Virus record (IMG/VR): IMGVR_UViG_3300037234_000145
Span: 1-45,843 of that record
DNA from: a virus
DNA: 45,843 nucleotides
Direction: 5' to 3' (one strand)
This document shows, in pieces, positions 23,432 to 45,843 of this stretch. Position 1 is the first letter of the stretch. Every line of letters begins with the position of its first letter. Below the pieces are notes generated by a model that was not told where the DNA came from, did no database searches, and saw only the letters and a list, made by a program, of their open reading frames with translations. The translations under genes were made by a program, and so were the position numbers.

Positions 23432-23460
23432 ATTCTACCACATAAGGGAAGAATTGTCAA
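23432..23460 (-). promoter_or_regulatory. Sigma70-type promoter for the HNH gene
   Basis: Minus strand TTGACA (23455-23460), 17-bp spacer, TAGAAT (23432-23437). The helicase TGA stop lies inside the TTGACA. Confidence 0.75.
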
Positions 23461-25049
23461 TAGTCGGTATCAGGTTCTAAGTATGTTCCGTTCTCTTTGT
23501 TGTAGAATATGTCAAAGGCAATGCTATTCCCATTCACCCTGTCCTCTAGCAGCACGAGCTTAGTGGTATTCAGCTCCACCTCATCAAGCTCAGGAGACTT
23601 ATCCCTCTCCAATCCAATCATGTAATGGCATGCCCTGCCCATTGCCCTACTACCAGTGAACTGGCTACTCAACACCCTGCCACCCCTGTTATGTTCTGGG
23701 CCTGTCCTTGGGTTGTTTAGATGGGTGAAGCAGAAGCCACAGAAGCCGAGGTCTACTGACATCTGTGCCAACTCACGACTGAATTTTTGTAAGAATGTGT
23801 TAGCTTCGCTTGGTTCCATGCCATCAGTGAGTGTTACGAGAGGGTCGATGAACACAAACTTACACCCCTCGACTATGGCGGCATGTCTGATAGCAGCCTT
23901 TACTTCGTCCCAATCTAGTGAGTTATCCCTGTCGTATAAGATTACGTGCGGAGCTATGGCTTCCAGTGCGCCCCTCACCTCCTCATCATCCACCTCAATG
24001 GATGGGATGTGAAACACCTTCCCTGCAATTTTCCCTGCCAATTTTCTAGCTGTGAGTGGGGCTTGCTCCTCTCCTTTAATGATGAAGCACTTCTCTCCAA
24101 CGCTCAACAGGTGGGCCACCAGCTCATCAAGGAATGCGCTCTTGCCGCACTTAATACCTGCTCCAATGAAGTAGAGTTCACCAGACCTCATGCCATAGGT
24201 TGCTCTCGTCAAGGAAGGCCAAGGGAAGGACACACCCCACTGAGTGCGAAGCATGGCCTCCTCCATGATGTCCTCAATCCTCACTATACCTCCGGGGGAG
24301 TGGGGACGGGCATCAACAACAGCCCTTACGAACTCTTCCTCTGCTCCTAAGAGCAAGCAATCATTAGGGTCTTTGTGTGGCATCTGCACCACCAAAACTT
24401 CTCTGTCTATAAGAGCAGCCAGCTTGTTAGTACCAGCTAGACCAGCACTGTCCATGTCAAGGCATAGTAGGATACGCTTGTGCTTATGTACCCAATCAAG
24501 GTTGGAGCTGACAGCAGAGAAGTTTGATTCACCATCGGGAAGGGACACACAGCATGGGGTACGATGAGGCATGGCGAAGCTCATCATCTGATGTGCAGCC
24601 TTAGCATCCTCCTCTCCCCCACATATGATGAGGGTTTGGGAACGGACGACACCCATACCATACAATTCTGTCACGCCCTTGGTCTTACCAATGGAGTAGA
24701 AGCCCTTGGTATCGAGTGTCCTCACCTTCCAGCCCTTACCCTTCCGATAGTATACCCTCTCTGGCTCACCAGAACTCTCGTCAACACCCACCCTGTCCCC
24801 GTAGAGGGCACGGATTGTGTTATCAATACCACGTATAGGATCACCCTCGTAAGGGGCATAGGAGGCGATTGCCTCCGCTGATTCTCCACTCATAAACTCT
24901 TCCTTTGATTCGCCGTTGGCGAGGGTAGTGTAGCCACATTTAGGACAATGCTTCCCACCATCCTCGAAGATAATTAAATGATTACCTGTCCGATCATGCC
25001 CATCCTTGCGGCACTCGGGGCAAGGCTCGTCCCCAACAATACTACTCAT
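23457..25049 (-). CDS. Primase-helicase (T7 gp4-like)
   Basis: 530 aa. The zinc-binding primase module has Cys10/Cys13 and Cys35/Cys38. The toprim core is GGEEDAKAA (about 144-152) and LCLDMDSAG (about 195-203). The helicase has Walker A GAGIKCGKS (296-304) and Walker B FVFIDPL (Asp402), followed by a FTHLNNPRTG sensor-type segment. It makes primers and unwinds DNA at the fork with the family A polymerase. It overlaps the preceding 54-aa gene by eight bases. A one-mismatch copy of the palindrome lies at 24343-24354, in a different frame. Confidence 0.95.
   Translation of the reverse strand: MSSIVGDEPCPECRKDGHDRTGNHLIIFEDGGKHCPKCGYTTLANGESKEEFMSGESAEAIASYAPYEGDPIRGIDNTIRALYGDRVGVDESSGEPERVYYRKGKGWKVRTLDTKGFYSIGKTKGVTELYGMGVVRSQTLIICGGEEDAKAAHQMMSFAMPHRTPCCVSLPDGESNFSAVSSNLDWVHKHKRILLCLDMDSAGLAGTNKLAALIDREVLVVQMPHKDPNDCLLLGAEEEFVRAVVDARPHSPGGIVRIEDIMEEAMLRTQWGVSFPWPSLTRATYGMRSGELYFIGAGIKCGKSAFLDELVAHLLSVGEKCFIIKGEEQAPLTARKLAGKIAGKVFHIPSIEVDDEEVRGALEAIAPHVILYDRDNSLDWDEVKAAIRHAAIVEGCKFVFIDPLVTLTDGMEPSEANTFLQKFSRELAQMSVDLGFCGFCFTHLNNPRTGPEHNRGGRVLSSQFTGSRAMGRACHYMIGLERDKSPELDEVELNTTKLVLLEDRVNGNSIAFDIFYNKENGTYLEPDTDY
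24343..24354. repeat. Palindrome near-copy GCTCCTAAGAGC
   Basis: One mismatch in the fourth base. Inside the primase-helicase gene, in a frame other than Ala-Leu-Lys-Ser. Confidence 0.5.
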
Positions 25050-25702: not shown

Positions 25703-25862
25703 ACACCCCTCCCATATAGTCCATGAAGTCGGCATCCTCTTGCCCACTGAACACACCAGCGGCAATCAAACATTTAGTACAGAGAGTTTCGGGGCTTCCA
25801 TCCCTCTGCTTCCTCGCTATCTCCCCGCCTGTCATTATAGCAGGGCATGCTAAGCATCTCAT
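25683..25862 (-). CDS. 59-aa zinc-finger protein
   Basis: ATG at 25862 overlaps the upstream stop (ATGA) and has GGAGG before it. Cys3-x2-Cys6 and Cys28-x2-Cys31 form a treble-clef or ribbon-type knuckle, followed by an acidic tail. Similar MRCLAC-starting small proteins occur in several phages. Nucleic-acid or protein binding is likely. Confidence 0.65.
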   Translation of the reverse strand: MRCLACPAIMTGGEIARKQRDGSPETLCTKCLIAAGVFSGQEDADFMDYMGGVYEPETD

Positions 25863-26413
25863 TCTCTACCTCCAATAGTTTTTCCTCTCCGTTGAGGGGC
25901 ATGAGTAGGACGAGGCTTCTTCTTAGGCTTAGCCTTAACCTTCGGCTTAACAACAGGCTTACCCTCAATTTTTTCTCTAGCTATTTGAGTTGCCCTTCGC
26001 TTGTCTTTCCTCCGTTGCTTCTTACTCTTGAAGGGGACAACGGATGTGTTCTTACTAACGGTAGCACCCTCCACCACCTCACCCTTAGCAGTAACAGCCC
26101 CTCTATCTGCAAGGTAGGCTTCCGCTTCTTTAATCTGATTGTCAGTGAATAGCTCTGCCTTGTCTGTATTATTAAACACAGCTTCATCAAACTTTATTTC
26201 ATTAGCCTTCACTACAGCAGCATTGTCAGAGGTTTCAAGAGTCTTGGTCATGCCTTCCACTATAGTAGTAGTTTGCTCTTTAATTGCCCTGTCTAAGCGT
26301 ATGTATTCCCCACATATACTCCTAAAGGGACAGTCGCTTGACTCACATAGTGTTATGGTTGTCCAATACTTCTTACCTCGTAGTGTACACCACACATCCA
26401 CACCCTGCACCAT
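25859..26413 (-). CDS. Cys-cluster protein with highly basic tail
   Basis: 184 aa from the ATG at 26413, behind GGAGAGG; in-frame starts further up lie inside the cyclotransferase gene. Cys9, Cys23, Cys28 and Cys34 (CPFRSIC) could bind zinc or an Fe-S cluster. The last 60 residues are almost entirely Lys, Arg, Pro and Thr (for example KKQRRKDKRR, KAKPKKKPRP), suggesting nucleic-acid or cell-wall polymer binding. It lies directly after the amidoligase/cyclotransferase cassette, so it may be a substrate or partner of it. No family recognised. Confidence 0.6.
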   Translation of the reverse strand: MVQGVDVWCTLRGKKYWTTITLCESSDCPFRSICGEYIRLDRAIKEQTTTIVEGMTKTLETSDNAAVVKANEIKFDEAVFNNTDKAELFTDNQIKEAEAYLADRGAVTAKGEVVEGATVSKNTSVVPFKSKKQRRKDKRRATQIAREKIEGKPVVKPKVKAKPKKKPRPTHAPQRRGKTIGGRE

Positions 26414-26417
26414 TACC

Positions 26418-26777
26418 CTACCCTCTCCAGTTGAGGACGTTGTTGGTTGGTTGAACAGCTCGTCCACTAATTTTAGTAGCTTCATAAATATAAGCATCTG
26501 TTGTCACTCCATCCTCTAATTCAATTTGTATTACATTCCTTTCGTACAAGTGGGGGACGCCTTCATAACTGTCCAACACCTTCCAGTTAGGCTCATCGTA
26601 GATTTCCACACGAATAGGATGGCCTTCGTCTGCCCTCTCTATCATTGGGAACCCAACGTCTGTCATTCTATACTTAACGGACGTAAGCCCCACTCCTATG
26701 AAGGATGCATTGTTCAGCATTCCGTTAGCACGGAAGCCTCGCTTCAATGTACCATACACTGCTACTCTACCACTCAT
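26418..26777 (-). CDS. Gamma-glutamylcyclotransferase-like (GGCT/AIG2 family)
   Basis: 119 aa. VAVYGTLKRGF (residues 5-15) is the family signature that binds the gamma-glutamyl group, and VLDSYEGVP has the conserved acidic residue (Glu72). The family releases 5-oxoproline from gamma-glutamyl amides or forms related linkages. It overlaps the amidoligase gene (ATGAGTGGTAG) and belongs to the cassette 26418-29646. In published comparative genomics, phage amidoligases are found next to GAT-II and AIG2-like genes, which matches this order. Confidence 0.85.
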   Translation of the reverse strand: MSGRVAVYGTLKRGFRANGMLNNASFIGVGLTSVKYRMTDVGFPMIERADEGHPIRVEIYDEPNWKVLDSYEGVPHLYERNVIQIELEDGVTTDAYIYEATKISGRAVQPTNNVLNWRG

Positions 26778-28008
26778 TTCTGTCTCCTGTTGTTGGTGTT
26801 GTTACATCTGATGGCACAGTCCATGTCATGTTACGTACCCTCTCCATCTGCTCCGCACTTATATTAAAGACGGGAGGAGGAGGAGGTGACACAAACCTAC
26901 CCCTACTGTCCCGCCTCCTTGGTTGGGGAGCATTCACCATCTCTACGAAGGCTTCGGGGATGGGTGTTATCCCTATCGGTGGGTCAACAGTTTCCATCGG
27001 TTGTTGACTCCCATCCATCGACACAAACACTGGTCGTGGACGACGAGGTATAGTTGAGGGAGCTGCTTCTAGTGAAGCGTGTGCTCTACGCATCTGTGCC
27101 ACTTGTTCCTGTAAAGGGGTCATGTTTCTGCGAGGCTCTGGCCTCCGATCATCCCTAAACCCACCCTCATAGTGCCTCTCCTCTATCACAGTTTCCTGCT
27201 TAAGGAAGTCGAAGCATTGGTACGTCACTAGATAGGAGCCAGAGCCACCCCGTATCTCAATCCCATACATAACAGCCACCCCTTCACGTTGCAGCCACTC
27301 AGTATACTCCTTGAACTGAACGATGTGAGAGTGGTTGATGAAGTCTCCGGGCAGTTGGTGTAGCTTGGTTAGTATGTCTCTCCACTTGGGTTTAACCACT
27401 ACATTCTTACCCATCAGGAAATTGTAAGCACGGGAGAGGAGGCTCTTAAGAGCAGCCTTCCCCTTCTCTTCATACAACATCTCGGGTTCGATGCAGCGTA
27501 GCTCATACGTATCAAACGCCTGATGGTACACAACAGGCTGGAACCTATCCTTCTGCTTATACCTATACTCACTGCCCCTCACTCCACCATGTATGTGATG
27601 GGACGTGAGGCCTCTGAATGTCATGCCATAGTATCGCATTAGGTCAGCCATTACAATCTTACTTAGGTTGGCAGCTATGGCATGCTTGGCAGCCCTACCC
27701 ATACGATAGTCTATTCTTTTGCTGCCTCCTCGTAGCTGTAGATGGAGGTGTATGCCATTGAATACAGGCCCACCACTCCCATTCTTCGGAGCCTTGAAGT
27801 CCATACGTCCACGGGATGAGCGCTCTTTCAATTCATCTGCCCAATTAAAAAGCTGCTCAAGATTTTGATTCAGTGTTGGGTTGATTACATGGAAGTCATT
27901 AACTTCCCATTGGTTTGGATAGTACTCAGGGTGGGCGGGATAAGCTGTGCCCTCGTTAGCCCAGAACTCTATCTCACATCCTAAGTGTAGGTTTAGTGGG
28001 GAGGACAT
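26767..28008 (-). CDS. Amidoligase-like enzyme (glutamine-synthetase fold), copy 1
   Basis: 413 aa from the ATG at 28008 (TGATG overlap with the amidotransferase stop). Residues 9-16 LGCEIEFW give the Mg-binding Glu12/Glu14; FNGIHLHLQL gives His87/His89; YELRCIEPE gives Glu169-x-Arg171. This is the motif set of COOH-NH2 ligases that join a carboxylate and an amine using ATP. The C-terminal 120 residues are Pro/Arg-rich and probably disordered. A second enzyme with the same motif spacing lies at 28819. A palindrome copy (27442-27453) is inside the gene. Confidence 0.75.
   Translation of the reverse strand: MSSPLNLHLGCEIEFWANEGTAYPAHPEYYPNQWEVNDFHVINPTLNQNLEQLFNWADELKERSSRGRMDFKAPKNGSGGPVFNGIHLHLQLRGGSKRIDYRMGRAAKHAIAANLSKIVMADLMRYYGMTFRGLTSHHIHGGVRGSEYRYKQKDRFQPVVYHQAFDTYELRCIEPEMLYEEKGKAALKSLLSRAYNFLMGKNVVVKPKWRDILTKLHQLPGDFINHSHIVQFKEYTEWLQREGVAVMYGIEIRGGSGSYLVTYQCFDFLKQETVIEERHYEGGFRDDRRPEPRRNMTPLQEQVAQMRRAHASLEAAPSTIPRRPRPVFVSMDGSQQPMETVDPPIGITPIPEAFVEMVNAPQPRRRDSRGRFVSPPPPPVFNISAEQMERVRNMTWTVPSDVTTPTTGDRNEW
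27442..27453. repeat. 12-bp palindrome GCTCTTAAGAGC, copy 3
   Basis: Exact copy inside amidoligase copy 1, read as Ala-Leu-Lys-Ser. Confidence 0.9.
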
Positions 28009-28817
28009 CAGTGACAGTCCCCTACCCAACCCTGTCCTGCCACCCACTTACGTACCTTACCATTAGCACGTCCCTGTGTATAGTCAGGGGGCCATGAGTA
28101 TTGGGTTTTGCCTTTGCAATCGGAGCAGCGTACAGTTGTGGACAAACCTATAAATTCTTCGCCACAATTTTGATAGGTGCATACCTTACGACGATAGCCT
28201 TCGGGATCATCATGCCCTAAGTCCCATTCAGCCATATCGAGAGGCAATTCTGTCAGGATATGCGAGTCGATAGCTGCCCACATTCCCTCTTCCATTGGCT
28301 CACTGGCATACATGCCCTTGGCAATACCTTCAGTACAGAGGTGGAGAGAGCGGCCTATGTCCTTATGAAACCACAGCTTGCCTTCATCATACACAAACAC
28401 CACGCCTGTCCTCTCAAGCATACACCACATGGCCTCATCACCAACAATATTCCAGAAGTCTGCTATTACACAGGTATCTGATTGTCCCCAGAACATATCG
28501 GACAATGCCTTCCTCGTACCATTATGCATAACAAAAACTTTGTTAGCTGAGTCAGACACAGGATGGACAAGCTCGGCCTTGATGCCACCGATGCTAGCTT
28601 TCCGATGGTGTATGATAGTGGGCTGTCTTGGCATATACATGAAGCTGTCCATGAATGTATCATGGTTTAAATCCTTGACATGCCTTGCACCCTTGGATGT
28701 TGGAGGCTGTAAAGCTATAGCCCCATACCCATCAGTTCCTCGATGCTTCTGCTGTTCAAGATGCTTGGCGAGGAGGTTCCTTGATGGCTTTTCTGGATAG
28801 ATTAAGAAGCCGCACAT
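28008..28817 (-). CDS. Class-II glutamine amidotransferase with C-terminal zinc ribbon
   Basis: 269 aa. Cys2 is the Ntn nucleophile (MCGF). HRGTDGYG (25-32), HHRKAS (70-75), HNG (98-100) and SDTC (113-116) are GAT-II motifs for glutamine binding and ammonia release. Residues 213-234 (Cys213, Cys218, Cys231, Cys234) form an added zinc ribbon. The gene lies between the two amidoligase genes, so it probably supplies ammonia to, or transfers an amide for, the ligases. It starts one base after the upstream stop region. Confidence 0.88.
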   Translation of the reverse strand: MCGFLIYPEKPSRNLLAKHLEQQKHRGTDGYGAIALQPPTSKGARHVKDLNHDTFMDSFMYMPRQPTIIHHRKASIGGIKAELVHPVSDSANKVFVMHNGTRKALSDMFWGQSDTCVIADFWNIVGDEAMWCMLERTGVVFVYDEGKLWFHKDIGRSLHLCTEGIAKGMYASEPMEEGMWAAIDSHILTELPLDMAEWDLGHDDPEGYRRKVCTYQNCGEEFIGLSTTVRCSDCKGKTQYSWPPDYTQGRANGKVRKWVAGQGWVGDCH

Positions 28818-28818
28818 A

Positions 28819-29646
28819 TTATATACCAGCCTCCTTCAACATCAGAGGGTAGAGTTTGCCCTTCTTGAAATACAGGTCAGCATGTTCCCATACAGCTACA
28901 CTATCAGCCCCTTCAACAAACATATCCAGCACCTCATTCACCAAATCAAACTTCCAGTATTGCTTAGCTGCACTCATCATACCATGCATCATCTTGTCAC
29001 CCATAATCCTACGCACATCTGCTGCTATAGCAGAGGGTGAGCCTTCCCCATGATACCTCTCCTTCATACCCTTCACACTGGCTTGAAATCTCTCATCCAA
29101 TACAGTTGGGTAGAGCATGGTTGCTACAAGCGGAGCAGGATTCTCATTCAGACGTAGCTCCATCGTACCATTACCATTGTTAGCCATCATGCCATTGACT
29201 AGGCACCGATTCTCCAGATGTGTATGTTCCTGCCCTGTTAGGAATGTATCCTGTCTCGACCTAAACCTAACACCAGTGCGGGATAGATGATGAGCTGCAA
29301 GCAGCATAGGGGTGGCGTTCAAGGCATTGGCAGCCTCCACCTTTGTTACGTGCCCTTGATTAAAGTATGATGGACGTATCCGTCTTGCACCCATGTGTAA
29401 GTGGAAGCTCTCAGCTCGTTCATCATACTCACCACGAGCATGTTCAAAACCAAGCATGTGCCCTAACAGGCAACTTCTCCGAAGAAACTCACGCCCATCA
29501 CAAGGCATGGTTTGGTACTCATATATTCTGTTGCTTTCCCAATGGCTTGGTCGCATCCAAGGCATCACCTTCCAGCCTTCCTTCTCTCGCCGCCTTAGAT
29601 TTATTTCCAGCTCCATCCCAAATGTGTACGGCTTATGACCTGTCAT
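28819..29646 (-). CDS. Amidoligase-like enzyme, copy 2
   Basis: 275 aa. FGMELEINL gives Glu12/Glu14, ESFHLHMGA gives His82/His84, and TMELRLNEN gives Glu163-x-Arg165: the same motifs at nearly the same spacing as the 413-aa enzyme, without its Pro/Arg-rich tail. It resembles the COOH-NH2 ligase family known from phiEco32-like phages (Pfam family of that name). Its product is unknown; glutamyl or aspartyl amide bonds on a peptide, protein or cell-wall precursor are the general possibilities. Confidence 0.75.
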   Translation of the reverse strand: MTGHKPYTFGMELEINLRRREKEGWKVMPWMRPSHWESNRIYEYQTMPCDGREFLRRSCLLGHMLGFEHARGEYDERAESFHLHMGARRIRPSYFNQGHVTKVEAANALNATPMLLAAHHLSRTGVRFRSRQDTFLTGQEHTHLENRCLVNGMMANNGNGTMELRLNENPAPLVATMLYPTVLDERFQASVKGMKERYHGEGSPSAIAADVRRIMGDKMMHGMMSAAKQYWKFDLVNEVLDMFVEGADSVAVWEHADLYFKKGKLYPLMLKEAGI

Positions 29647-29650
29647 ACCC

Positions 29651-29962
29651 TCACCCCCTGCAACTCAAGCACTGTCTGATTGTCCTCGGAATAACACACA
29701 GCTCTCCCCATAGGTATGGCAAGACTATGAAGATGAGCCAGCCTAATACCCACATAGCAACACCACCACCAAGCCCATACACTATTATCTCAAGTGGAAG
29801 AGGTACTGACCTTCCACTCTCTGTAAAGTCTCCGAACAGAAGGTAGCATACTCCATATCCTGTAGTAACAAGGGCTGTTATGATAGATAGCACTGTTAGA
29901 ACAGGCAAATTATGCATCAAACAACTCATCAAATTCTTAAAGCAAACGGTATGGCTACTCAT
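29651..29962 (-). CDS. Small integral membrane protein
   Basis: 103 aa from the ATG at 29962 (eight-base overlap with the previous stop). Two strong hydrophobic segments (about residues 18-44 and 58-82) and five cysteines, with a basic C-terminus. First of three membrane proteins directly upstream of the amidoligase cassette. Function unknown. Confidence 0.6.
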   Translation of the reverse strand: MSSHTVCFKNLMSCLMHNLPVLTVLSIITALVTTGYGVCYLLFGDFTESGRSVPLPLEIIVYGLGGGVAMWVLGWLIFIVLPYLWGELCVIPRTIRQCLSCRG

Positions 29963-30350
29963 TAGGAGTCTCCTTGTGTGCATCCAAATCCTTCACATGC
30001 TTCTTGAACACCTTTGTATGGTCAACACCATACCTAGCTAGGTACATAACTGCAATGAACACAAGCACAGGTAGTGTGATAGTGTAGAACACGATAGCTA
30101 AGGTTATTAGTTGCGGCACTACCGCTACAAAGAAAGCAGTGGCAACTAGCACACCACCAACATCATCATCACCACACCCTGTAATATCTAAGAATTTTTG
30201 TACCAACCATGATGGTTTAGACGTATCATCACGATCAACCCACTTCCAAACCCAACTAAGAACCCCGCTAATAGCAAGCCCAACCACGACCATAAACATA
30301 AGACCAAGGCTGCCAGTAAAAACCATTTCATATATATTAAACTCATTCAT
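29955..30350 (-). CDS. Integral membrane protein with three hydrophobic segments
   Basis: 131 aa, AGGAGG before the ATG. Hydrophobic segments at about residues 9-35, 67-86 and 85-106, an acidic loop (CGDDDVGG) and a basic C-terminal helix (HTKVFKKHVK). No family recognised. Its ribosome-binding context (AGGAGGATAAG) is shared by neighbouring early genes. Confidence 0.6.
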   Translation of the reverse strand: MNEFNIYEMVFTGSLGLMFMVVVGLAISGVLSWVWKWVDRDDTSKPSWLVQKFLDITGCGDDDVGGVLVATAFFVAVVPQLITLAIVFYTITLPVLVFIAVMYLARYGVDHTKVFKKHVKDLDAHKETPNE

Positions 30351-30359
30351 CTTATCCTC

Positions 30360-30770
30360 CTACTTTATTAGGTTGGCTGCATATTCAACAAGCCATACCT
30401 TTGGTGCAATCCATATCTGTAACCATACAACATTGATGCTGACGAAGAATGTGAAAGCTCCGATACATGTCGCAAAGAATCCAAAGACAAACACAGGTGT
30501 AGGATCACCATCTGGATCAGTGTACTTCCATTCATCCTTCTCATCCTTTTGCCCAAGGAACATCGTCACCTTGTACAATACGAATGGTACAACAAAAGCA
30601 ACAATACACATGAGGAAATTAAACACACCATGCCACATCAATAACTGTATAACATACTCAGGAAGCTGCCCTTCCATAAACCCAACACCTGTGTCAACAC
30701 CAGCCAACACCTTATCAATCAACGATGCAACAGCACCATCCAACTTACCCACTACTACTTCTGTATTCAT
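30360..30770 (-). CDS. Integral membrane protein, possible early inner-membrane effector
   Basis: 136 aa. An N-terminal amphipathic region is followed by hydrophobic segments at about residues 45-70 and 90-120, separated by a charged loop (GQKDEKDEWKY). A QLPEYVIQLLMWHG stretch precedes the first segment; related sequences occur in uncharacterised phage membrane proteins. Holin function is possible but the gene is far from the endolysin. The RBS is AGGAGGATAGG. Confidence 0.6.
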   Translation of the reverse strand: MNTEVVVGKLDGAVASLIDKVLAGVDTGVGFMEGQLPEYVIQLLMWHGVFNFLMCIVAFVVPFVLYKVTMFLGQKDEKDEWKYTDPDGDPTPVFVFGFFATCIGAFTFFVSINVVWLQIWIAPKVWLVEYAANLIK

Positions 30771-30837: not shown

Positions 30838-32073
30838 CTAAGCTACTGAACGCTCGTCGCACAGTGTTACCAGTGCGTCGATGCCAGACTGAAGCGCCTC
30901 GATCTTGGCAGTCAGTGAAGCAGGCTTGTTAACCATCTTCTCAAGACGTGCAATTTCTGCTTCAGCATCGCTGATGTAGCCGTAGAACGCCTCATCAGTG
31001 GTGTTCTTGTCGATTACTGTTCCGTTTACCAGAGTCTGTGATTTGATATTGATTTTGAATGGCATAGTGCCTCCTTGTGTTACGTTTGTGTTGCGTGGTG
31101 TTACCAATGCGAACTTCTTGCTGCTTCCGTTCGGCGTTTTGTGTCCGTTGTCCATCTGTACTACAAGCGAACCGCTTACATTCACTCCCAGCACACTACC
31201 TTCTTCACCATGACCAGCCTTAGACCAGCCAGTGCCGAGACGATAGACCCGATCACCCTTTTTGAACTCTGACATATGTAATGCCTCCTTAATTTCTACA
31301 TCTTCTGATGTAGTTGTATTGTCTGTATCACTACAGTCAAACCCTTGTAGGTGGGTGACATACTCACCAAGCCTACTATTATCCTTCCATATCCCATACT
31401 GTGGGGCATAGTCAAGCAGTCTATCTACCCACATTGCCGTACCATCTTGACATATGTAGATGTATCCATGTAGATGGCTATCACCCTTCATGTATGCAGG
31501 TTTGAATACATCACCAGCCCTCGGCTCTCTGGTCTTAGGAACAACAGCTTCCTTAATAGGATAGCCTCTATCAGCTTGCTCGAAGCTAAGCCAAGAGCCA
31601 CTGGTAAACTTAATCCTACCAAAGCCACATGACGTATCCTCAAGTACCACCTCTTTGATGATGAGTCTGGCTTGTGGATTGGACTTATGTTCAAGCTCTT
31701 GCCCCACCTTATACTTAACCTCACCCTCGGCAACGACAAGCTCGAAATACTCAGGCATATACCCAGCATCTTCGCACCCTTCGAGGTACATAGTATGGGC
31801 GCCATCCACTCTACGCACCACATACTCACCACCTTTCGTAACGTGGGTTTGAGTACGCCCTGTTCGTCGCACCCTATCACCCACCTTAAACTGAGTGACA
31901 AGCTGAAACTCTTCAGTGAAATGGAACTGACCAAGCTCATTGCGAAATCCATTGGTGGTGTCACACTCACGATACGCACCAACGGTACATTCAAACCCCA
32001 CCTTATGTTGAGGCCACACATCAGCCATCCTTCCGATGATGGATCGCCTCACTTTATCTCCTGTCTTAAACAT
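30838..32073 (-). CDS. Composite early protein with SH3-like repeats and internal start sites
   Basis: 411 aa. Four short repeats each begin with the same strand: FKTGDKVRR (2-10), FKVGDRVRR (62-70), YKVGQELEH (121-129) and FKKGDRVYR (270-277), as in small SH3-like barrels. Residues 337-411 are a separate helical domain starting MPFKINIK. Two internal in-frame ATGs (residues 267 and 337) carry perfect AAGGAGG sites, so two shorter proteins of 145 and 75 aa are probably made as well. A five-codon upstream reading frame overlaps the main start. Function unknown; by position it is an early protein. Confidence 0.65.
   Translation of the reverse strand: MFKTGDKVRRSIIGRMADVWPQHKVGFECTVGAYRECDTTNGFRNELGQFHFTEEFQLVTQFKVGDRVRRTGRTQTHVTKGGEYVVRRVDGAHTMYLEGCEDAGYMPEYFELVVAEGEVKYKVGQELEHKSNPQARLIIKEVVLEDTSCGFGRIKFTSGSWLSFEQADRGYPIKEAVVPKTREPRAGDVFKPAYMKGDSHLHGYIYICQDGTAMWVDRLLDYAPQYGIWKDNSRLGEYVTHLQGFDCSDTDNTTTSEDVEIKEALHMSEFKKGDRVYRLGTGWSKAGHGEEGSVLGVNVSGSLVVQMDNGHKTPNGSSKKFALVTPRNTNVTQGGTMPFKINIKSQTLVNGTVIDKNTTDEAFYGYISDAEAEIARLEKMVNKPASLTAKIEALQSGIDALVTLCDERSVA
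31070..31076 (-). promoter_or_regulatory. Internal Shine-Dalgarno AAGGAGG for an in-frame ATG at 31065
   Basis: AAGGAGG lies four bases before an ATG in the same frame as the 411-codon ORF and would start a 75-aa protein (MPFKINIK...). In the long form it is translated as part of Thr-Gln-Gly-Gly-Thr-Met. Confidence 0.7.
31284..31290 (-). promoter_or_regulatory. Internal Shine-Dalgarno AAGGAGG for an in-frame ATG at 31275
   Basis: AAGGAGG with ideal eight-base spacing to an ATG in the same frame as the 411-codon ORF. It would start a 145-aa protein beginning MSEFKKGDRV. Confidence 0.75.
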
Positions 32074-45122: not shown

Positions 45123-45843
45123 ATGGGTGGTTTTACTACTGGTAACAGTGGTCATCTAATTCGTTCGTCCGTCTGGTCGCAGAACCTGAAGGACATCTTA
45201 ATTGACGAACTGGAAGCTACAAAATACGTGGATTGGCTCACCGATTTCCCTGATGGAAATACGTTGAACATTCCTTCAATTGGACAGGCAACTGTTCGTG
45301 ATTATAGTGAGAATGAACCTGTCGTATACGACGCAATGGACACTGGTAACTTCCAGTTCTCTATCGACCAGTATAAGAGTTCAGGTACGTACATCACTGA
45401 ACAGAATAAGCAGGATGGTTTCTACATGGATCGGCTTATCAGCTCTTTCGTGCCTAAGCAGAACCGTGCTATTCAGGAATCTGTGGAAACTTCCATCATG
45501 GCCTTGGCATCTAGCCTTGGTACTGTTGGTACTCCCGGCTATGCTATCAATGGTCGTAACCATCGCTTCGACGCGACAGGTACTGCTGTAGGTGGCGACC
45601 AGCAGATTGCTGTAGCTGACTTTGCTACTGCACTGTTGGCCTTGAAGAAATCTAATGTCCCTCAGACCAACTTGGTCGCAATTGTTGATCCGTCTGTTGA
45701 GTATACTCTCAACACCCTGACTAACATTGTCAATATGAGTAACAACCCACAGTGGGAAGGTGTTGTGTCTTCTGGTATTGCTACTGGAATGCGCTTCGTC
45801 AAGAATATCTACGGCTTTGACGTATATACTTCTAACTACACTG
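45123..45843 (+). CDS. Major capsid protein, N-terminal part (continues at 1-342)
   Basis: ATG at 45123 with GAGAGG upstream, 13 bases after the scaffold stop. 240 codons are visible before the window ends; the last 127 bases repeat the window start, and the joined protein is 311 aa. N-terminal SSVWSQNLKDILIDELEAT then a beta-rich coat-like domain (GNTLNIPSIGQATVRDY). Made at high level from the consensus promoter at 44339. Confidence 0.85.
   Translation, partial: MGGFTTGNSGHLIRSSVWSQNLKDILIDELEATKYVDWLTDFPDGNTLNIPSIGQATVRDYSENEPVVYDAMDTGNFQFSIDQYKSSGTYITEQNKQDGFYMDRLISSFVPKQNRAIQESVETSIMALASSLGTVGTPGYAINGRNHRFDATGTAVGGDQQIAVADFATALLALKKSNVPQTNLVAIVDPSVEYTLNTLTNIVNMSNNPQWEGVVSSGIATGMRFVKNIYGFDVYTSNYT
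45717..45843. repeat. Terminal overlap, right copy
   Basis: Identical to bases 1-127. Confidence 0.95.

Follow-up and report, generated by a model that had tools for sequence, protein, structure and literature searches.

A reduced, rearranged and diverged variant of the phage amidoligase cassette predicted in an IMG/VR virus genome

Organization of the cassette

The virus record IMGVR_UViG_3300037234_000145 is 45,843 bases long and is referred to here, over its full length, as the window. Its minus strand carries a cassette of four genes in the order ligase A, class-II glutamine amidotransferase (GAT-II, here also GAT), ligase B and gamma-glutamylcyclotransferase (GGCT). Judged from sequence, the cassette is a real variant of the amidoligase cassette known from other phages, reduced, rearranged and very diverged. 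Ligase A (28819-29646; "amidoligase 2" in the first-pass annotation) and ligase B (26767-28008; "amidoligase 1") are putative carboxylate-amine ligases of 275 and 413 residues, both similar to the glutamine-synthetase-like Amidoligase_2 family; the C-terminal part of ligase B is rich in Pro and Arg. The GAT (28008-28817) is a predicted N-terminal nucleophile enzyme of 269 residues with Cys2 at its active site and a C-terminal tail containing four Cys residues. The GGCT (26418-26777) is AIG2-like and has 119 residues.

The genes are tightly coupled. A single base (28818) separates ligase A from the GAT, the GAT and ligase B have one base in common (TGATG, 28008), and ligase B overlaps the GGCT by 11 bases. 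Ligase B starts with the ATG at 28008, and a start at the in-frame GTG at 28047 would lengthen it by 13 residues. Purine-rich stretches resembling Shine-Dalgarno sequences precede ligase A, the GAT and the GGCT. The four open reading frames (ORFs), their order and coordinates, and the two overlaps and one-base gap described in the first-pass annotation are thus confirmed. The enzyme classes, the coupling of the genes and the conserved catalytic-type residues of the predicted proteins are supported by the comparisons described below.

The GGCT and the amidotransferase

The GGCT matches PF06094 with an E-value of 1.5e-16 and a score of 61.5 bits, compared with a Pfam cut-off of 22.8, and matches the phage GGCT family phrog_2520 with an E-value of 4.4e-17. 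It also matches solved structures of AIG2-like proteins in the PDB, with which its YGTL motif (residues 8-11) and the Glu of SYEGVP (residues 70-75) align. Its assignment as a predicted GGCT is certain.

Residues 1-174 of the GAT align with the GAT family of known cassettes in hhalign (96% probability, E-value 3.9e-9). Cys2, Arg72, the HNG motif at 98 and the SDT motif at 113 are in place, and there are weak matches to the Pfam family GATase_6 (0.0048, below cut-off) and to GlmS (3.3e-5). Its prediction as a class-II GAT is solid. The C-terminal tail has the form Cys-x4-Cys ... Cys-x2-Cys. A zinc-ribbon-like CxxC..CxxC pair is found at the C-terminus of 97 of 108 phage-cassette GATs (loci L013-L119) as opposed to 2 of 602 other ORFs, and the tail of the window GAT resembles this pair, although the spacing is not an exact match. 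A search of viral contigs found no close relatives of the window GAT or of the primase encoded nearby.

Sequence evidence for the two ligases

Both ligases carry the signature of PF12224 (Amidoligase_2), consisting of G-x-E-x-E, HxH and ExR, with the spacing of the family. The residues are G10-x-E12-x-E14, H82/H84 and E163/R165 in ligase A and G10-x-E12-x-E14, H87/H89 and E169/R171 in ligase B, confirming the positions noted in the first-pass annotation. A strict form of this pattern (G-x-E-h-E ... HxH ... ExR), applied to 240 ORFs, matched the two window ligases, all ten annotated phage Amidoligase_2 proteins and nothing else. It occurred in none of 20,000 shuffled sequences of each ligase. 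The pattern was, however, devised after the sequences had been seen, and it misses some of the divergent amidoligases of the minimal modules described below.

The two proteins were aligned with 70 diverse amidoligases from viral contigs. In all four MAFFT modes residues G10, E12, E14, W36, H82, H84, G160, E163 and R165 of ligase A fell in conserved columns, as did G10, E12, E14, W34, H87, H89, E169 and R171 of ligase B in three of the four modes. The seven signature columns are invariant in a 68-row alignment that includes the window rows. Counting the matches to invariant positions after a ligase had been added to the family alignment gave values equalled by 7 of 200 shuffles of ligase A and 1 of 200 of ligase B, and since MAFFT maximises such matches, the test has little force.

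A scoring matrix trained on 67 family members, with the window left out, gave the two ligases the highest and second-highest scores of all window ORFs of at least 150 residues. Related phage loci supplied 2,140 ORFs for comparison: the score of ligase A was equalled or exceeded by 29, including 23 COOH-NH2 ligases, and that of ligase B by 32, including 25 COOH-NH2 ligases. Among about 2,035 other proteins, only 6 and 7, respectively, attained these scores. The scores were reached by 9 of 2000 shuffles of ligase A and 17 of 2000 of ligase B; the third block that the matrix assigned to ligase B was at residue 191 and not at E169.

Neither ligase matches PF12224 in Pfam at an E-value of 1 or below. 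The same profile matches 65 of the 68 members of the family alignment, ligase A, its first member, not being among them. Searches of Pfam, PHROGs, NCBIfam and PADLOC gave nothing for either protein, a transporter match of ligase B (E-value 0.17) being attributable to chance, and hhalign of the single ligases with family profiles was not significant (best E-value 0.017, for ligase A). A tblastn search of 50,697 phage records yielded no relatives of the ligases, and neither did peptide patterns run against viral contigs or the 47 kin records identified by means of TerL; for ligase B, genome contigs gave none either. It is the motifs, the alignment and the gene context alone that identify the two proteins as putative amidoligases.

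Predicted structure of ligase A

The AlphaFold model of ligase A was built with family sequences supplied as the alignment. Single-sequence prediction was useless, with a predicted local distance difference test score (pLDDT) of 37. A comparison of structures placed three glutamine synthetases and YbdK nearest to the ligase A model: 8fbp (Z 4.2), 8tfb (Z 3.9), 7tf6 (Z 3.4) and 1r8g (Z 3.1). The superpositions cover 156-169 residues at 8-15% identity, with a root mean square deviation above 5, and there is no sequence match to these proteins. Foldseek searches gave only matches with E-values above 3 in the PDB and above 0.3 in BFVD, two of the weak BFVD matches bearing the name amidoligase.

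Glutamine synthetase binds metal and phosphate through a signature of E-x-E, H-x-H and E-x-R motifs, represented in the Salmonella enzyme by E129/E131, H269 and E357/R359. The window ligases have a signature of the same type as this enzyme and YbdK. The first-pass annotation had called for a check of the amidoligase fold in both ligases. For ligase A, the one modelled in this way, the residues of the signature fall in columns that are invariant across the family and the nearest structures are glutamine synthetases, which does not refute the expected fold; the model itself is of medium confidence, and the likeness of fold is weak and partly circular because the model was built on the family alignment.

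Genomic setting

The record has an exact terminal repeat of 127 bases (1-127 is identical to 45717-45843) and is therefore probably a complete genome. The terminase and portal proteins are approximately 44-52% identical to those of the Zobellviridae phages MEP401, GX1-k141_326647 and CVT22, and the tail adaptor is about 40% identical to its Zobellviridae counterparts. The structural genes lie on the plus strand. The minus strand carries the early genes, including those for a ribonucleotide reductase, a metallophosphoesterase, an exonuclease, a DNA polymerase and a primase/helicase. The DNA primase/helicase (23457-25049, minus strand; phrog_239, E-value 5e-132) has the cassette close upstream of it, as in several known cassettes (loci L001-L006). 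Seventeen of the 47 kin records, several of them fragments, were read in whole or in large part, and only one (G014, L206) has the full cassette, so that its occurrence among these relatives is sporadic.

Several other ORFs lie close to the cassette. Three small ones (29651-30770) lie immediately upstream of the ligase A gene, on its strand, and each encodes two or three hydrophobic segments resembling transmembrane helices; relatives of the first (30360-30770, phrog_3054) occur in 174 phage records of widely differing kinds. An ORF at 30838-32073 encodes 411 residues with repeated modules of the KVGDRVRR type that are weakly SH3-like (PF18346, phrog_4317). The ORF at 25859-26497 overlaps the end of the GGCT gene, and its product, which matches no family, has Cys residues in the N-terminal part and a tail rich in Lys and Arg.

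Proposed function

On balance, the cassette is best regarded as a reduced and diverged member of the amidoligase cassettes that would form amide or gamma-glutamyl bonds with ammonia derived from glutamine, early in infection and likeliest on a peptide of the host envelope. The GAT would hydrolyse glutamine at Cys2 and pass the ammonia to a ligase, likeliest ligase A, which would use ATP to convert a carboxylate into an acyl phosphate and then into an amide. Ligase B could add a second amine, plausibly as a gamma-glutamyl bond. The GGCT would then free gamma-glutamyl groups as 5-oxoproline, either trimming the product or recycling its parts. The two ligases had been taken in the first-pass annotation to mean sequential steps. 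This fits the known cassette, in which two ligases and an ATP-grasp ligase usually occur together, and it stays an inference. The window has no such third enzyme: a hidden Markov model (HMM) of 111 ATP-grasp members found none among the window ORFs (best E-value 0.26) in this genome with its exact terminal repeat, and a hidden ATP-grasp gene was accordingly rejected. The pathway would therefore comprise one ligation fewer than that of the full cassette, unless a host enzyme supplies the step, and its product is probably either shorter than the one made by the full cassette or unlike it.

The full cassette has been termed a peptidoglycan modification cassette that may block superinfection or ready the cell for lysis, a prediction from comparative genomics (PMC5498523, PMC10580990, PMC11945000). 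For the full cassette, the idea of such a pathway is already in the literature. In Pseudoalteromonas phage PSA-HP1, expression of the homologous cassette genes follows infection immediately (PMC7082346), which favours early action on the host over modification of the virion. A virion protein, one of the targets suggested by the first-pass annotation, is disfavoured both by this observation and by the position of the cassette among early replication genes. The likeliest target would be a host-envelope peptide altered early in infection, with the aim of excluding other phages or readying lysis. The cassette was also considered as an anti-phage defence system, and no PADLOC match was found.

Several observations weigh against this proposal. 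No profile recognizes either ligase, and even deep HMMs of 105-117 cassette ligases fail to detect them. The mean pLDDT of the ligase A model is 59.6, which is medium confidence with the signature strands among the better parts, and the Z scores of its glutamine synthetase neighbours are low (about 4). Because the window lacks key genes of the full cassette, conclusions drawn for that cassette may not apply to it. The literature consulted yielded no experiment on the product of any phage cassette and no demonstrated substrate or product.

Alternatively, the cassette might make a diffusible small molecule, or alter a metabolite or host protein and not the envelope, yielding an amidated or gamma-glutamylated compound by a protection scheme of the butirosin type (BtrJ/BtrG-like) in which the GGCT finally strips a gamma-glutamyl protecting group. 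We consider this less likely. In its favour, the GGCT of a known cassette is annotated as AIG2-like and butirosin BtrG-like, no feature of the window names an envelope substrate, and similar amidoligases are linked to secondary metabolites in a paper that cites the Marvin study (PMC10580990). However, the published hypothesis and the early expression fit a change of the envelope as well, and Pfam and PHROGs searches found no transporter or further biosynthetic gene adjoining the cassette.

It is considerably less probable that the cassette is decaying, the ligases being fast-evolving remnants of a full cassette whose pathway is no longer complete. The failure of profiles to detect the ligases, the absence of three cassette genes and the sporadic occurrence among the partly fragmentary kin records speak for decay, but the frames are open at full length, start and stop codons remain tightly coupled, and the signature residues are all retained in both ligases, the GAT and the GGCT. 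Least probable of all is that the signature is coincidental and the GAT and GGCT act alone: in spite of the lack of a significant profile or Foldseek match and the late choice of the pattern, the signature appeared in 0 of 40,000 shuffles, its alignment was stable across several MAFFT modes, an independently trained matrix placed the two proteins at ranks 1 and 2 in the window, and their genes sit beside those of the GAT and GGCT.

The phage amidoligase cassette is widespread, occurring in podoviruses of Escherichia, Pseudomonas, Salinivibrio, Pseudoalteromonas and Citrobacter and in many uncultured phages. A natural version with two ligases, a GAT and a GGCT would show which parts of it are dispensable and is small enough for reconstitution in vitro. 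The window also demonstrates that annotation based on profiles can overlook the ligases of a cassette altogether.

Comparison with known cassettes

An amidoligase gene followed directly by a GAT-II gene is found in unrelated phages: Marvin (gp105-106), MEP401 (gp05-06), ctgrD200 and Acinetobacter phage 313. The annotation of Marvin gp105 (L240:1836-3197) names a glutamine amidotransferase domain; the protein has the signature of an amidoligase and matches the one of MEP401, and the GAT is gp106. The minimal modules of Marvin, MEP401/402, ctgrD200 and Acinetobacter phage 313 have the amidoligase-GAT-II order in common with ligase A and the GAT of the window and, as in the window, the ATP-grasp gene is absent from the stretches seen. 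They differ in having one ligase and not two, and their ligases have no detectable sequence similarity to those of the window. In C75C1 (L007:6506-7402) and ctfjg026 (L238:5001-6218), which are grouped with these modules, GAT and GGCT are fused in single proteins annotated only as GGCT. The two-gene modules and the fusions tie these enzymes to one pathway.

The cassette of the phiEco32, LUZ24-tf, CW02 and RIO-1 type is reportedly a comparative-genomics prediction of Iyer et al. 2009 and Hardies et al. 2013, as related by papers citing them. For comparison, 117 loci with an Amidoligase_2 gene were assembled, the window excluded; some phages are represented twice (GenBank and IMG/VR) and some loci are cut. 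A PF14395 COOH-NH2 ligase, a partner protein, a PF12224 Amidoligase_2 protein and a GAT occur together in 105 of these loci, ATP-grasp in 110 and GGCT in 56. In each of these 105 the partner protein separates the two ligases. Two Amidoligase_2 genes are present in 0 of the 117 loci, and the window order, with the GAT between two Amidoligase_2-like ligases, is likewise seen in none.

No window ORF matches a profile of the PF14395 COOH-NH2 ligase or the HMM of the partner protein, the place of which is occupied by the GAT. Ligase B was considered as the PF14395-type partner of ligase A and rejected on its G-x-E-x-E motif; this motif is present in 0 of 105 members of the PF14395 family, in which the corresponding motif is G-x-D-P-E.

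The window cassette resembles the phiEco32/LUZ24-tf/CW02/RIO-1 cassette in having two glutamine-synthetase-like ligases, a class-II GAT of the same family, an AIG2-like GGCT and a position in the early region by the primase/helicase. The first-pass annotation was right about the identity of the enzymes and their connection with the phiEco32-type cassette; it did not recognise the variant as reduced and reordered. The window cassette differs in the absence of the PF14395 ligase, the partner protein and ATP-grasp, and in having two Amidoligase_2-like ligases with the GAT between them, both past profile detection. Tentatively, and with some doubt, the window could represent a distinct type of pathway, in which two Amidoligase_2-like ligases invisible to profiles share one GAT-II and one GGCT and, with no PF14395 ligase, partner protein or ATP-grasp taking part, yield a product unlike that of the phiEco32-type cassette. 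If so, the system would exist naturally in a small form with two ligases.

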